64,000 bases of DNA from positions 124,001 to 188,000 of the forward strand of contig NZ_RQJO01000008.1 in the NCBI RefSeq assembly GCF_003858635.1. The letters are read 5' to 3'. How positions within the stretch are numbered: position 1 is the first letter of the stretch; every line of letters begins with the position of its first letter. The DNA comes from Larkinella rosea. GTDB taxonomy: Bacteria; Bacteroidota; Bacteroidia; Cytophagales; Spirosomataceae. Made by a program: the position numbers and the translations under genes. Below, piece by piece: positions 6,626-43,957 of this stretch. The notes beneath the pieces were generated by a model, which saw only the letters and a list, made by a program, of their open reading frames with translations, did not search any database and was not told the origin of the DNA.

Positions 6626-7960
6626 TCAGGCTTCTCCCAAATTGAATAGTCCTTCGTTGAGGGCATTCAAGGCTTCGGCTTTGTACCGACCGTGCATCAA
6701 CAATGAAATGTTATGTTCGGTGCCGCCGTACGAAATCATCCGGATCGGAATGCCTTCCAGCGCTTTCAGCACCTGCAGGGCAATACCGGCATGGTCGGCG
6801 CTGAAATTACCCACGATGCACACAATGGTCTGGTCGTAATCCGGTTCTTCCAGGTCACAGAACGTCCGCAGTTCGGCCATCAACTCGGTCAGGTTATCGG
6901 TCTTGTCGATCGTGACCGAAACCGATACTTCCGAAGTTGCAATCAGATCGACCGGCGTTTTGTATTTCTCGAACACCTCGAAAATCCGGCGCAGAAAACC
7001 GTAGGCATTCAGCATCCGTAGCGAATGGATGTACAAGGCCGTAATGCCGTCTTTGGCGGCCACGGCTTTGAACACCTGATCGGAAGTTTTGCTGGCGATC
7101 AGCGTACCTTCGGCTTGCGGGTCCATCGTGTTTTTCAGGCGAACCGGAACACCGAACATCTTCGCCGGGGTGATCGTAGACGGGTGCAGGATTTTTGCCC
7201 CGAAATACGCCAACTCGGCCGCTTCTTCAAACGTCAGTGCCCGGATCGGGAAGGTTTTCTTGACAATCCGCGGATCGTTGTTGTGCATGCCGTCGATGTC
7301 GGTCCAGATCTGGATTTCGTCGGCCCGGATGGCTCCGCCGATCAGCGAGGCCGTGTAATCCGAACCACCGCGTTTCAGGTTATCGACTTCGCCACGCGGA
7401 TTTCGGCAGATAAATCCCTGGGTCACAATCAGTTTTTTATCGCCGTGCGCCCGCAGCAACTCCCGCAGTTTCCGCTCCGTAAAATCCAGCTCGGGTTCAC
7501 CGTCGGCATCCACCCGCATAAACTCCAGCGCCGGCAGCAAAATGGACTCTTCGCTGGACTCTTCCAGACAAGCCTGAAACATCTGCGTACTCAGCAATTC
7601 GCCTTCGGCCACCAGTTCCTTTTCCTGTTTCAGCGTAAACGGACGAATCCGGGTCAGCGACCGAATGAACGAGAACTCGTTTTCGATGATCTTCTGACCT
7701 TTCGTCAAACCGTCGGACGTCTTGTACAATTCGCGCACGAACGAATCGTAATGCGCTTTCAGGTGCTCGATTTTTTCGGCTGCTTCCTCCGGCTGATCCG
7801 CTTTCAGGGATTCGGCAATGGACAACAGCGCGTTGGTGGTACCGGACAAAGCCGACAGAACGATGATTTTTTGCTGATCATCGGAAGTAATCAGGTTGCG
7901 GATCGAATGCATTCGTTCGGGCTTGCCAACGGACGTTCCGCCAAATTTCCAGACTTGCAT
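6626..7960 (-). CDS. Aspartate kinase (monofunctional)
   Basis: This 444-residue enzyme phosphorylates L-aspartate, the first step to lysine, threonine and methionine. The N-terminus VWKFGGTSVG (about 3-12) is the kinase nucleotide-binding signature, and GGSDYTASLIGGAIRADE is the substrate and ATP loop. A C-terminal region with two ACT-type regulatory segments (from about residue 300) suggests feedback control by end-product amino acids. There is no homoserine dehydrogenase domain, so it is not a ThrA-type fusion. It is separated from the ribH gene upstream by a long inverted repeat. A promoter-like TAATTTTG lies on the minus strand at 8037-8030, overlapping the ribH stop. Confidence 0.93.
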   Translation of the reverse strand: MQVWKFGGTSVGKPERMHSIRNLITSDDQQKIIVLSALSGTTNALLSIAESLKADQPEEAAEKIEHLKAHYDSFVRELYKTSDGLTKGQKIIENEFSFIRSLTRIRPFTLKQEKELVAEGELLSTQMFQACLEESSEESILLPALEFMRVDADGEPELDFTERKLRELLRAHGDKKLIVTQGFICRNPRGEVDNLKRGGSDYTASLIGGAIRADEIQIWTDIDGMHNNDPRIVKKTFPIRALTFEEAAELAYFGAKILHPSTITPAKMFGVPVRLKNTMDPQAEGTLIASKTSDQVFKAVAAKDGITALYIHSLRMLNAYGFLRRIFEVFEKYKTPVDLIATSEVSVSVTIDKTDNLTELMAELRTFCDLEEPDYDQTIVCIVGNFSADHAGIALQVLKALEGIPIRMISYGGTEHNISLLMHGRYKAEALNALNEGLFNLGEA

Positions 7961-34188: not shown

Positions 34189-35301
34189 GTGATTGATTTG
34201 GCTATGTTTTTACCCCTTTCTATATCCACGCCCGGTCGTATCTGTTTGTTTGGAGAACACCAGGATTACCTCGGTTTACCGGTTATTGCTGCGGCCATTT
34301 CCAAACGAATCCAAATTACAGCTGAGCCCACCACCAAACCGGAGGTTCGGCTGTTTCTGCCCGACATTGACGCGGAGGAGCGGTTTTCGCTACGCACCTT
34401 TCCGCTTTCGTACCAGCACGACCGCGACTATTTTCGCTCGGCCATCAATGTGTTGCTGCGGGAAGGTTTTCGGTTTTCCAGCGGAATTCAGGGCGAAGTC
34501 CGGGGCAATATTCCCATCAATTCCGGCACCTCCAGTTCCTCGGCGCTGTTGATCACCTGGTTAGCTATTCTCAGTAAGTTAGCTGACAATCCGCAGCCGT
34601 TGTCGCCCAGGCAGCTGGCAGAACTCGCGTACCGGGCCGAAATCCTGGAATTTGGCGAACCCGGTGGTATGATGGATCATTACGCCACGGCGGTTGGCGG
34701 GGTGATTTACCTTGAATCCAAACCGGCCATTCATCTTGAGTCGTTTCAGTCTCAGTTGGGCACATTTGTGCTGGGTGATTCGCGCCAGCCGAAAGACACC
34801 ATTGGCGTGTTGCGGCACGTCAAATTCGGGATGCTGGGAGCGATGGAGAAAATCCGGCAGTACGATCCCGGTTTTTCACTTGATTCGTGTCCACAGGAAA
34901 AAGTGGACGAATACCGCCACTTGCTGACGCCGGACGAAACCGTGCTGTTGAAAGGCAACCTGTCCGACCGCGATGTATTGCAGGAAGCCCTGACTATGTT
35001 CAAAACGGGCATCATCGACCACCAGCGACTGGGTGCTTTGTTAACGATTCATCAAACCAGCCTGCGGGAAGCCAAGCGTGTCTCGACCCCCAAAATCGAC
35101 CGAATGATTGAAGAAGCCCTCAAGGCCGGGGCTTACGGCGGCAAAATCAACGGTTCCGGCGGTGGCGGCTGCATGTTTGCCTACGCGCCCGAAAACCCGG
35201 AAGCAGTGGCCGAAGCCATTGAGCGGGCGGGCGGAAAAGCGTACATCATCCAGGTTGATCAGGGCGTTTCAGTTCAGCCTCAGGTTCAGTCAGTTGAGTA
35301 G
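34189..35301 (+). CDS. GHMP-family sugar kinase (galactokinase-like)
   Basis: The protein has 370 residues from GTG at 34189 or 365 from ATG at 34204. It has the GHMP fold motifs GRICLFGEHQDYLG (substrate loop, near 17-30), GNIPINSGTSSSSALL (ATP loop, near 104-119) and KINGSGGGGCMFAYA near the C-terminus. The substrate loop has H-Q-D-Y in place of the H-T-D-Y of galK in this window, so the sugar may differ (galacturonate, L-arabinose or a related aldose are possibilities). It begins three bases after the DUF3472 stop, so it is the cytoplasmic phosphorylation step of the sugar operon. Confidence 0.83.
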   Translation: MIDLAMFLPLSISTPGRICLFGEHQDYLGLPVIAAAISKRIQITAEPTTKPEVRLFLPDIDAEERFSLRTFPLSYQHDRDYFRSAINVLLREGFRFSSGIQGEVRGNIPINSGTSSSSALLITWLAILSKLADNPQPLSPRQLAELAYRAEILEFGEPGGMMDHYATAVGGVIYLESKPAIHLESFQSQLGTFVLGDSRQPKDTIGVLRHVKFGMLGAMEKIRQYDPGFSLDSCPQEKVDEYRHLLTPDETVLLKGNLSDRDVLQEALTMFKTGIIDHQRLGALLTIHQTSLREAKRVSTPKIDRMIEEALKAGAYGGKINGSGGGGCMFAYAPENPEAVAEAIERAGGKAYIIQVDQGVSVQPQVQSVE

Positions 35302-35416: not shown

Positions 35417-35454
35417 CGTTTTAAAATATTATCCTATAAATAATATAGATTTAG

Positions 35455-35486
35455 TTTGGAATATAAAAAACCGCCTTTTATTTTTG
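35455..35486 (+). promoter_or_regulatory. Promoter of the SAM-riboswitch unit
   Basis: TTTG (35455-35458) and TATTTTTG (35479-35486) are separated by 20 bases, an exact fit to the Bacteroidota sigma-factor consensus TTTG-N19-21-TAnnTTTG. Transcription should start near 35492-35494, about 40 bases before the aptamer. Confidence 0.75.
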
Positions 35487-35532
35487 CATCATCATCTTGA
35501 TTACTTGCAAAAGTAATTCCCGGTTGCCGGTG

Positions 35533-35648
35533 TGATGGTTTATACAGAAAGGGGGAGAGACAGGCTCGATGAACCCTTAGCAACTTTCCATTTAGTGGAA
35601 TAAGTGCTAACCTGCCTAGTAGTAGGAACTATAAATGATCAACCATCA
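35533..35648 (+). promoter_or_regulatory. SAM-I-type (S-box) riboswitch
   Basis: The core reads GGGAGAGACAGGCTCGATGA, then ACCCTTAGCAAC, GTGCTAA and CCTGC, in the order of the S-box consensus (GAGGGAC-GGCCC-AUGAA-CC-GGCAAC ... GUGC-AA-CCUGC). Four helices can be drawn. P1 is TGATGGTT (35533-35540) with AACCATCA (35641-35648). P2 contains AAGGG with CCCTT. P3 is TTCCA-TTTAG-TGGAA. P4 is CCTGC with GTAGG. It should bind S-adenosylmethionine. P1 ends on the A of the ATG of the 22-codon ORF, so ligand binding would hide the start codon. No methionine-metabolism gene follows. Confidence 0.85.
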
Positions 35649-35716
35649 TGAGCAATCAAACGTCAAAGCAACGTTGTGACCCCGATCAGGACTGGCATCT
35701 TTGTCCGATCCGGTAA
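35648..35716 (+). CDS. 22-codon ORF controlled by the SAM riboswitch
   Basis: ATG at 35648 opens 22 codons and a TAA. The product begins MSNQTSKQRC and ends DWHLCPIR. It is hydrophilic, has two Cys residues eight positions apart and contains no membrane segment. The start codon forms the 3' end of riboswitch helix P1, and a terminator follows 16 bases after the stop, so it is the only ORF of its transcript. I do not recognise the peptide. It could be a small regulatory protein, or a decoy ORF on a trans-acting riboswitch RNA. The coding call rests on position alone. Confidence 0.5.
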   Translation: MSNQTSKQRCDPDQDWHLCPIR

Positions 35717-35732
35717 TCAGTTTCCACGTGCG

Positions 35733-35767
35733 AAAAGCCAGCGATTAGATCGTTGGCTTTTCGTTTT
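35733..35767 (+). terminator. Terminator of the SAM-riboswitch unit
   Basis: AAAAGCCAGCGAT (35733-35745) pairs with ATCGTTGGCTTTT (35749-35761) with one G-U pair and a three-base loop. It is followed by CGTTTTTATT. It closes a unit of about 275 bases and also faces the end of the convergent membrane-protein gene. Confidence 0.88.
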
Positions 35768-35785
35768 TATTCAAATTTTGATTTA

Positions 35786-36274
35786 TTAGTAGGCCAGCAA
35801 ACGGCCACAGGTGATGGTTGCCAGCCAGAGCAGCAGCGAACCAATGGCGGCCACTTTGGCCCCAATTGGCGTTGCGCCCGACTCCCAGCCGGCGGGCGCC
35901 CGAAACGTGATCCGGTGGAAAATAGCCACGTTAATGCCCGCGACAAGAATCAGGAACAGCTTCAATCCGAACATCGGATCGTTGCCCAGCGCTTCGGCAT
36001 TGGTCGTAAAAAGCAGCATTCCGGACGGAATGACGAGCGCCAATCCGCGCCTTGACCAAGGCAAAACATGCGTTGCCAGATCGAAAACCGGTATTTTTTT
36101 GGAGAAACCCAACAAGCGGAAATCGAACAGAAACGCCCCACCAACGAGGAGAGCAAGCCCGGTAATGTGCACGATTTCGAGACCGGGATACAACCACGTC
36201 GATTGGCGGATGACAACGGCCAAAGTGGTATTTTCAACCCATTGCAGCCACTCGACGGGAAAGGTCAGCCTCAT
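35786..36274 (-). CDS. Four-segment integral membrane protein (DUF6644/DUF2214-like)
   Basis: This 162-residue protein has about four transmembrane helices: STWLYPGLEIVHITGLALLVGGAFLFDFRLLGF, SRRGLALVIPSGMLLF, FGLKLFLILVAGINVAIFH and GAKVAAIGSLLLWLATITCGRLLAY. The YPxxExxHxxG pattern in helix one, with its buried His, resembles DUF6644/DUF2214-type membrane proteins that may bind haem; this is by memory of the pattern only. It overlaps the DUF6152 gene by four bases (ATGA), so the two form an operon. Confidence 0.7.
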   Translation of the reverse strand: MRLTFPVEWLQWVENTTLAVVIRQSTWLYPGLEIVHITGLALLVGGAFLFDFRLLGFSKKIPVFDLATHVLPWSRRGLALVIPSGMLLFTTNAEALGNDPMFGLKLFLILVAGINVAIFHRITFRAPAGWESGATPIGAKVAAIGSLLLWLATITCGRLLAY

Positions 36275-36627
36275 TTCCGCAGTTCAACTTTCTTGCCGTC
36301 GATGAAAATACGTTCGGCGCGCATTTCGCCTTTTTTAGTTTTATGCGGATACCCAACGACCCGCAATGAAACGCCTTTTTTCAGCATGTCGGCGGTGGCG
36401 CCCCGCTCCTGCATCCGGCTCGGAGGAGCCAAAACAACAAACCAGGTTTTGTCTTTATCTTTTACGTTGGCTGTAGCGTGCGGATTTTCATACTTCGATT
36501 CTTCGATGATTCCGGTATAATCCAGCACTTTGGTCTGGTCGTAATCGGCCCAACCGTGGTGTAAAGGAGCGAAAGCCGTTCCGAGGAAAAAAAGCAGCGC
36601 AAACGGCGTGATTTTCAGTAAGTTCAT
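36271..36627 (-). CDS. DUF6152-like secreted protein
   Basis: This 118-residue protein has a signal peptide (ITPFALLFFLGTAFA), a His pair in PLHHGWADYDQ right after the predicted cleavage region, and a small beta-barrel body (YTGIIEESKYENPHATANV, LRVVGYPHKTKKGEMRAERIFIDGK). This is the pattern of DUF6152 proteins, small periplasmic domains found with membrane proteins like its downstream partner. The NPHA and HH elements suggest metal binding, but I assign no function. The partner membrane-protein gene overlaps its stop. Confidence 0.75.
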   Translation of the reverse strand: MNLLKITPFALLFFLGTAFAPLHHGWADYDQTKVLDYTGIIEESKYENPHATANVKDKDKTWFVVLAPPSRMQERGATADMLKKGVSLRVVGYPHKTKKGEMRAERIFIDGKKVELRK

Positions 36628-36715
36628 AATTGATTGGGTTTACGATCAAAGAGAAAAGACATGAGAGCACAGAGGAATCTCTCATCAATCAACAACCTGA
36701 AAAAAAGCGATTTGT

Positions 36716-36806
36716 TAACGTACCCATGGACTTTAGTCCGTGTTTTTTTGTGGGCCCGCTTTATGAAATTCTCAAAAAACACGGACTAAAGTCCGTGGGT
36801 ACGTTA
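36716..36806. repeat. Inverted pair of ACGGACTAAAGTCCGT repeat units
   Basis: Two 33-base units, 36716-36748 and 36774-36806, are inverse complements with one mismatch. Each has an inner palindrome around ACGGACTAAAGTCCGT and an outer GTACGTTA. A third single unit lies at 48039-48068. The outer end of the right unit supplies the stop codon (TAA on the minus strand, 36804-36806) of the next gene. This looks like a REP-type mobile palindrome. Confidence 0.88.
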
Positions 36807-37562
36807 GCCTTTTTCCTGAACCAGAAAATCCTTCAGGCAACCGCGAATGGCTACGATCAAATCGTACTCATTGGCTTCCAGAACGAATTTTTCGGGGAGT
36901 TTGCAGAACTGCATAAACGCTGTCAGCCGTTCTTCTTTCAGTTCCGTAATGCGCGAAATCCAGATCGGATCCAAACGCGCCTGATACCGTTTTTTGTTTA
37001 ATTCGGCCTGGTTGAACTGCTGGAGTTTCTTCTCGTTTTTGGCTTCTTTACTGAACCGGCCATAGAGGGCAGAAATCGGGCCTTTCAATGTCATTTTAGG
37101 AGCCAGAGTCGCGTAATCGTACCCCATTCGCCCGACGTTGCCGAGGGATACACCCACCAGTTCCGGGGCGGTCTTGATTTCGATGACTGGTTTTGGGGCA
37201 ATGTTCAACTTCATGAATTCCTGCTTGAACCGGCTTTCGGTCCAGCCTTTGATCACTACTTCGTTCAGCATTTTTACGTCTTGAATCAGCTCAACGATCA
37301 ATTCCTGCTCATCGATCGGAACAATTAGCTGGACGGTTTTATACCCAATACACGAAATTAGCAGGGTGTCATTCGGGGAAGCCGTGATCCGGAATTGTCC
37401 GGTTTCGGTGCTCATCGTCGCCCGGGAAAGCGAGGTGTTCTGTACCGTAGCCGAAACGATCGGTTTTTGGTTGCTTTTATCGACCACCGAACCGCTCCGG
37501 ATCGTCTGAGCGTGGCCGATTGCCGACAGCAATACCAAAAAGAAAAGTAGTGTTTTTTTCAT
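36804..37562 (-). CDS. Secreted CarboxypepD_reg-like domain protein
   Basis: This 252-residue protein has a signal peptide (cleavage near GHAQT) and an N-terminal carboxypeptidase-regulatory-like beta domain (about 20-105: SGSVVDKSNQKPIVSATVQNTSLS, ISCIGYKTVQL, MLNEVVIKGW). A charged helical C-terminal part follows (FSKEAKNEKKLQQFNQAELNKKRYQARLD). It resembles the plug-leading domain of TonB receptors but lacks a barrel. Such proteins in Bacteroidota are cell-envelope proteins of unknown role. The stop codon lies inside a palindromic repeat unit, so the C-terminus may have been reset by insertion of that repeat. Confidence 0.75.
   Translation of the reverse strand: MKKTLLFFLVLLSAIGHAQTIRSGSVVDKSNQKPIVSATVQNTSLSRATMSTETGQFRITASPNDTLLISCIGYKTVQLIVPIDEQELIVELIQDVKMLNEVVIKGWTESRFKQEFMKLNIAPKPVIEIKTAPELVGVSLGNVGRMGYDYATLAPKMTLKGPISALYGRFSKEAKNEKKLQQFNQAELNKKRYQARLDPIWISRITELKEERLTAFMQFCKLPEKFVLEANEYDLIVAIRGCLKDFLVQEKG

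Positions 37563-42415: not shown

Positions 42416-43957
<1,542 letters not shown>

Follow-up and report, generated by a model that had tools for sequence, protein, structure and literature searches.

A stand-alone SAM-I riboswitch unit in Larkinella rosea with a conserved 22-codon open reading frame as its probable output

Results

We analysed a 64,000-nucleotide (nt) stretch of the Larkinella rosea genome (NZ_RQJO01000008.1, 124,001-188,000), hereafter the window, whose own positions serve as coordinates. At 35455-35768, on the plus strand, lies a compact unit built of a promoter, an aptamer of the SAM-I (S-box) class of S-adenosylmethionine (SAM) riboswitches, a 22-codon open reading frame (ORF) and an intrinsic terminator (Table 1); an earlier note, made from the letters of this DNA, had described these four parts within about 310 bases, and each was recovered. 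The unit recurs in every Larkinella genome searched, its ORF varies as a selected coding sequence does, and its design resembles that of metY leaders, and we think it somewhat probable that it is a complete gene for a SAM-switched microprotein.

Table 1. Features of the SAM-I unit and its immediate upstream flank in the window
Feature	Position	Strand	Basis or detail
SAM-switch unit, whole	35455-35768	+	promoter, SAM-I aptamer, 22-codon ORF, terminator
Near-palindrome CTATAAATAATATAG, possible regulator site	35434-35448		just upstream of the -33 box
Promoter TTTG-N20-TATTTTTG, presumed Bacteroidetes -33/-7 type	35455-35486	+	motif scan
5' hairpin of the predicted transcript	35499-35518	+	fold prediction
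P0, 5' strand, TGTGATGGTT	35531-35540	+	predicted to pair with 35641-35650, leader-only fold
SAM-I (S-box) aptamer, RF00162	35537-35637	+	covariance search
P0, 3' strand, AACCATCATG, ORF start region including AUG	35641-35650	+	leader-only fold prediction
22-codon ORF MSNQTSKQRCDPDQDWHLCPIR, motif [RK]C-x5-W-[RHK]	35648-35716	+	ATG 10 nt after the aptamer
Intrinsic terminator	35730-35768	+	16-bp stem 35730-35764, 3-nt loop, T tract

The promoter is the sole match to TTTG-N17-23-TAnnTTTG in 3,015 bases, where 0.10 matches were expected; its label follows the Bacteroidetes -33/-7 consensus. Transcription would start near 35490, and sequence arms like those of the 5' hairpin can be seen by eye in many other units of the kind described below. 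The terminator begins 13 nt past the ORF stop and is strong (-24 kcal/mol, z -8.05). Upstream, a GHMP kinase gene ends at 35301. Downstream, both genes read toward the unit, as had been claimed: DUF6644 (35786-36274) and then DUF6152, both assigned with Pfam. The next evident plus-strand gene begins at 42434, and a 164-codon plus-strand frame at 35811-36305, antisense to DUF6644, was taken as spurious. The absence of a neighbouring methionine or SAM gene also stood, neither of these nor a cysteine gene being seen beside the unit in a by-eye reading of window ORFs of at least 120 amino acids (aa); the nearest aspartate-family gene found in this way is aspartate-kinase-like (6626-7960).

The covariance check that the note had proposed gave a clear result. 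The aptamer scores 74.8 bits against RF00162, whose gathering score is 44.4 (E 1e-15, model positions 1-108), and is the only match at that threshold within the window. The genome holds two further SAM-I aptamers, which precede MetH-like and MetY-like genes, in agreement with the statement that such riboswitches normally sit in front of met genes. Here and below, the labels metY, metX, metH, cysteine desulfurase, YceI, TonB receptor, M28 and SUMF1 were given by eye from characteristic sequence features and are presumptive. Across ten sequences of the unit, 99.1% of aptamer cells are paired and two of the 33 pairs are changed on both sides, one of them in the pseudoknot; since 27 of the 33 never vary, this test of compensatory change is thin. 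Shuffled alignments did as well in 2/500 cases each for pairing, two-sided changes and covariation score, and in 58/500 for further pair types, although related sequences can beat such shuffles without structure. Judged by its sequence, the aptamer would be expected to bind SAM.

The unit is also conserved. Its DNA matches in 9/9 Larkinella genomes, L. rosea included, and the peptide-core pattern, with up to two mismatches allowed, occurs in 11 of 222 genomes of the family Spirosomataceae: the nine Larkinella, one genome of a second genus (G220) and one chance match. Ten of these eleven matches adjoin an aptamer, and the remaining one is the chance match. With matches in all nine Larkinella genomes and a further occurrence in another genus, the unit lies beyond chance. 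A match in G183 proved to be a terminator-like hairpin without an aptamer and was set aside, and a search of a plasmid collection gave no match to the unit. In G220 the unit occupies another locus, with its own RF00162 aptamer, between SUMF1-like and M28-peptidase-like genes, and in L. soli (G006, L058) its neighbours differ again, so that it is kept in three contexts.

These contexts bear on whether the unit could instead be a leader-peptide attenuator acting in cis, in which the position of the ribosome would set the terminator and read-through would produce an antisense RNA to DUF6644 and DUF6152. The closeness of terminator to stop codon suits such a device, as do the resemblance of the unit's relatives to cysteine leaders and the DUF6644-like gene end that converges on the unit in 8/9 Larkinella genomes (Pfam was run on the L. 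rosea window only). However, L. soli has no DUF6644-like gene in the 5 kb shown, its next same-strand ORF of at least 90 aa beginning 2.1 kb past the unit, and the G220 ORF and the same-strand M28-peptidase-like gene 88 nt on have a hairpin (-20.8 kcal/mol) between them. Since these two genomes have other neighbours, antisense action on DUF6644 is weakened as a general function. A regulated same-strand gene downstream was found neither in the window nor in L. soli, the gene behind the G220 hairpin being the one candidate, and no antiterminator was seen, although without a systematic search. The window peptide has two separated cysteines and no run of Cys codons (the peptides of G001 and G003 have one cysteine); with neither a Cys run nor a gene in cis, the window ORF does not qualify as a polycysteine attenuator. 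A 2020 paper by Canestrari reportedly deals with mycobacterial polycysteine. Altogether, we regard attenuation in cis as quite unlikely.

The ORF itself shows coding selection. The core RCDPDQDWHL is invariant in 10/10 sequences, yet 10 of its 30 nucleotide columns vary and all ten changes are silent, an outcome matched by 0/200,000 random placements. For the seven pairs computed, silent divergence (pS) in the core was 0.40-1.66 against a non-silent divergence (pN) of 0-0.04, the non-zero values of which come from two-step Leu codons. Purifying selection therefore acts on the amino acids of the core, and a chance ORF is ruled out by the silent-only variation; the question of conservation and synonymous pattern that the earlier note had raised is thereby answered in favor of a coding sequence. 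L. rosea, but none of the other nine in the comparison, has a substitution in the 3' strand of P1 that creates an extra, out-of-frame ATG (35635-35637), which opens a 14-codon ORF just ahead of the conserved start.

The note had left two roles for the unit, a trans-acting RNA or a SAM-controlled small protein. Selection on the core supports the small protein, whereas for the RNA no positive evidence emerged, and no target search was made. As a regulatory RNA of the kind represented by Listeria SreA, the terminated riboswitch transcript would pair with other mRNAs, SAM would alter which of its parts are free, and the ORF would be secondary. The compact, terminated and free-standing form of the unit, with promoter and terminator present in the sequence, agrees with this, and there is precedent in that SreA binds prfA mRNA, according to the available part of the account (PMC3179153). 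Nevertheless, the core is selected as protein while drifting at silent sites, and this drift argues against pairing of the core with a target and against a purely SreA-like RNA, which we consider unlikely; a dual role as RNA and peptide is possible.

To place the unit among its relatives, we ran a covariance model of the aptamer plus ORF start (model R1) on the 222 family genomes. It returned 36 matches of at least 86 bits in 30 genomes, the next match scoring 74.7 bits. The second tier consists of 26 matches in 20 genomes of four genera: Dyadobacter, Spirosoma, Siphonobacter and the SCN 52-12 type. From 38 loci we kept 32 units, four leaders being identical to one that was kept and two (L123, L125) being missed by the pattern. 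Second-tier ORFs differ in sequence. Most contain cysteines, frequently close to the stop codon (FCCCPC, CCCCH, CFCCH), and a single Spirosoma ORF lacks them. In five Dyadobacter peptides the C-terminus is [KR]CCPxDKWRS, with 12 of 30 columns varying, eight of them at third positions. The exact Dyadobacter peptide pattern occurs in 6/48 genomes of that genus, exactly those in which the unit is present; with one mismatch allowed four more genomes match, against two for a reversed control. The motif [RK]C-x5-W-[RHK], which was picked after the peptides had been seen and appears in 0.1-0.6% of single-peptide shuffles, is present in 16 of the 32 units (nine Larkinella, G220, five Dyadobacter and the SCN 52-12 type) and in 0/16 Spirosoma and Siphonobacter units.

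Most surroundings of these units were read by eye. A cysteine desulfurase gene, in place of a methionine gene, follows on the same strand at five Siphonobacter loci and one Spirosoma locus (L043-L045, L049, L051, L052), and a SufS-like partial frame does so in the SCN 52-12 type. Dyadobacter, Spirosoma and one Siphonobacter have YceI and TonB-receptor genes downstream, again on the same strand. In two Spirosoma loci (L041, L053) the next evident gene is on the opposite strand, and these units may stand alone too. A terminator right after the ORF was found in 7/9 Larkinella units and in 4/23 others, where two of the four are weak (-7.6 and -7.8 kcal/mol).

Ordinary SAM-I leaders proved to share the design. 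The family set comprises 36 ordinary aptamers, 34 of them fetched and two from L. rosea itself (own metY leader, L003); the 40 fetched regions were hand-picked from R1 matches and also included six units (L120-L125). Several loci of one genus are near-identical copies, and one aptamer edge (L133) was set by hand (2041; cmscan, 2054). A short Cys-containing ORF sits at the same place in 22/23 metY leaders, beginning 8-10 nt after the aptamer in 21 of the 22 and 12 nt after it in one, and the motif CMP is contained in 15 of the 23. Such an ORF is present in three of nine metX leaders, none of three metH leaders and one unassigned leader. At 8/11 loci from other families in the order, a run of at least four cysteines closes the ORF or stops no more than two residues short of its end; three of these eight loci precede genes other than metY. 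As R1 includes start-codon columns, these family and order counts lean toward an ATG at that place. Free of this lean is a set of 59 loci sampled from the class and the order and ranked solely on aptamer score, in which ten of 11 metY leaders have a cysteine, nine have CC and eight have at least three cysteines in the last nine residues; CC occurs in 0/29 metH and 0/19 other leaders, and three metH leaders have a short ORF with one cysteine. In the order, a SAM-I aptamer ahead of metY usually has a Cys-rich short ORF directly behind it, in some cases with as many as seven Cys codons in a row (loci among L126-L155, L076-L088 and L195-L211).

Because placing and spacing agree, the window unit matches a leader design common at metY in the order, and since metY leaders usually carry a short Cys ORF at this position, it looks like a detached leader relative. 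It might then be a relic, a metY-type leader copy stranded by rearrangement and now functionless; no same-strand gene follows it, and the model that detects it also picks up ordinary metY leaders, with lower scores. Against decay stand the silent-only change in a core with high silent divergence, retention in 9/9 Larkinella genomes and an intact promoter and aptamer, and we give a functionless relic very little credence.

Other observations concern the leaders and flanks. Two loci (L076, L078) have a SAM-I aptamer and a poly-Cys ORF before a gene starting near ...FHEHxxWFRPLFNELD, ATP-grasp-like by eye and an unusual partner of a SAM riboswitch; at L083 an aptamer and an ORF ending in CCCC precede a PAPS-reductase-like gene (by eye). 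Near-palindromes like CTATnnnnnnnATAG are visible by eye upstream of many unit promoters in Larkinella, G220, Spirosoma and Siphonobacter, and not in Dyadobacter. Tried as a regulon marker in the L. rosea genome, the palindrome CTATnnAATnnATAG gave 70 matches with at most one mismatch against 60 for a reversed control, and so no clear enrichment. Of its three exact sites, one (L092) stands some 40 bases ahead of a TonB/SusC-like gene. A long inverted repeat at about 36714-36808 (arms around GTACCCA..GGACTTTAGTCCGTG, by eye), which separates DUF6152 from its further neighbour, is possibly a mobile hairpin element.

Discussion

The explanation we favor, as somewhat probable, is that the Larkinella unit is a complete and free-standing microprotein gene, switched by SAM and derived from a leader type, with a peptide that probably works in trans within the economy of sulphur or methionine. 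The promoter would drive a transcript of about 280 nt that opens with a hairpin, followed by the aptamer. When SAM is plentiful it would stabilize P1, and bases just 5' of P1 would pair with the AUG and its surroundings (P0); the start would then be masked and little peptide produced. Under low SAM this region would be free and the 22-residue microprotein would be translated, transcription stopping at the terminator. The design would stem from a Cytophagales leader type in which a SAM-I aptamer and then a short Cys ORF precede metY and other genes, the Larkinella module, with no gene downstream, being kept for its peptide.

The pairing of the leader flanks lends modest support to gating of the start region. 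Among 69 hand-chosen leaders (the 32 units, 20/36 of the family set, 9/11 from other families and 8/59 of the score-ranked set), the native 5' and 3' flanks of a leader pair more stably than exchanged flanks (-4.15 vs -3.57; 20/2000 as low), as they do with one leader per group (n=32; -4.17 vs -3.26; 15/5000 as low); in the window the best flank duplex is a pairing other than P0. According to the available text of Barrick and Breaker (PMC2258182), SAM-I switches that hide the ribosome-binding site carry it in the 3' side of P1, a placement that fits a translational OFF switch. In 30/32 units, forcing P1 leaves the start less open (mean openness 0.47) than barring P1 and P0 does (0.70), the start codon having been shifted by hand in four units (L004, L043, L044, L045). 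Free-energy gaps between the alternative folds run from -4.6 to +6.8 kcal/mol across the 32 units, values that SAM binding could tip.

Several observations weigh against this account. For the complete transcript, the minimum-energy fold (-87.3 kcal/mol) contains neither P0 nor P1, the best fold with P1 forced reaching -86.2, 1.1 kcal/mol less stable. In the comparison of start-region openness, forcing P1 partly builds in the result. Two units (L035, L042) gate in the opposite direction, the difference in the window unit is small (0.41 vs 0.48), and the Larkinella pairing next to P1 is out of simple register. The N-terminal part of the peptide is freer than the core (codons 1-18: pS 0.55-1.25, pN 0.11-0.19). 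Spirosoma and Siphonobacter peptides look unrelated to those of Larkinella, and we therefore do not extend a shared peptide function to those units. Finally, the window peptide matched nothing in Pfam, which was run on it and four window proteins only, and the ten peptides matched nothing in NCBIfam. The database result bears equally on another use of the peptide, as a precursor of a ribosomally synthesized and post-translationally modified peptide or as a metal binder, produced under low SAM. Short, conserved, Cys-containing peptides with conserved motifs are what such a role would call for, but no modifying enzyme was recognized by eye beside the unit and the neighbours vary between genera; we judge it very improbable.

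If the microprotein reading is correct, the unit is a riboswitch with a microprotein as its entire output, and its likely ancestor can still be recognized in relatives, which offers a testable path from a cis-acting leader peptide to a free-standing gene. A broader proposal, which we advance tentatively and without quite favoring it, is that leaders in Cytophagales work as tandem sensors, with a SAM-I aptamer gating translation of a Cys-rich leader ORF, so that one leader could read both SAM and cysteine, and that this module was freed in Larkinella and at least one further genus as a trans-acting sulphur microprotein. Among the matches listed in our literature search, which covered few subscription papers, there was neither a SAM-I aptamer joined to a cysteine leader ORF nor this unit.

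Comparison with known systems, judged from the available portions of the papers cited, places the unit between several precedents. In arrangement, the nearest appears to be the Mbox riboswitch of Mycobacterium tuberculosis, which controls a conserved small ORF, rv1805A, upstream of pe20 in an operon (PMC12810186). There, too, a riboswitch with a translational platform stands over a short conserved peptide ORF, and the peptide has a relative outside the riboswitch context; the ligand, however, is magnesium, the ORF belongs to an operon in another phylum, and that account, as available, describes no cysteine feature. In the B12 riboswitches of M. tuberculosis paired with upstream ORFs, translational OFF riboswitches likewise interact with translated short ORFs, but with B12 as the ligand and with metE or ppe2 as the targets that those ORFs modulate in cis (PMC11260477). 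In peptide type, actinobacterial cysteine leaders seem closest: their ORFs (PMC1262725) resemble the Cytophagales metY leaders, yet no SAM aptamer is described for them, and the window ORF, with its separated cysteines, has no downstream gene. For action in trans, the nearest systems appear to be SreA and peTrpL. In SreA, the terminated RNA is the leader of an operon that follows it, whereas our unit has no operon and carries a selected coding ORF, and Sinorhizobium peTrpL comes from a transcription attenuator and works in antibiotic-dependent ribonucleoprotein complexes, no riboswitch being described (PMC7298713). What the unit shares with SreA is a short, terminated SAM-riboswitch transcript, and what its proposed peptide would share with peTrpL is the capacity of a leader peptide to work in trans.
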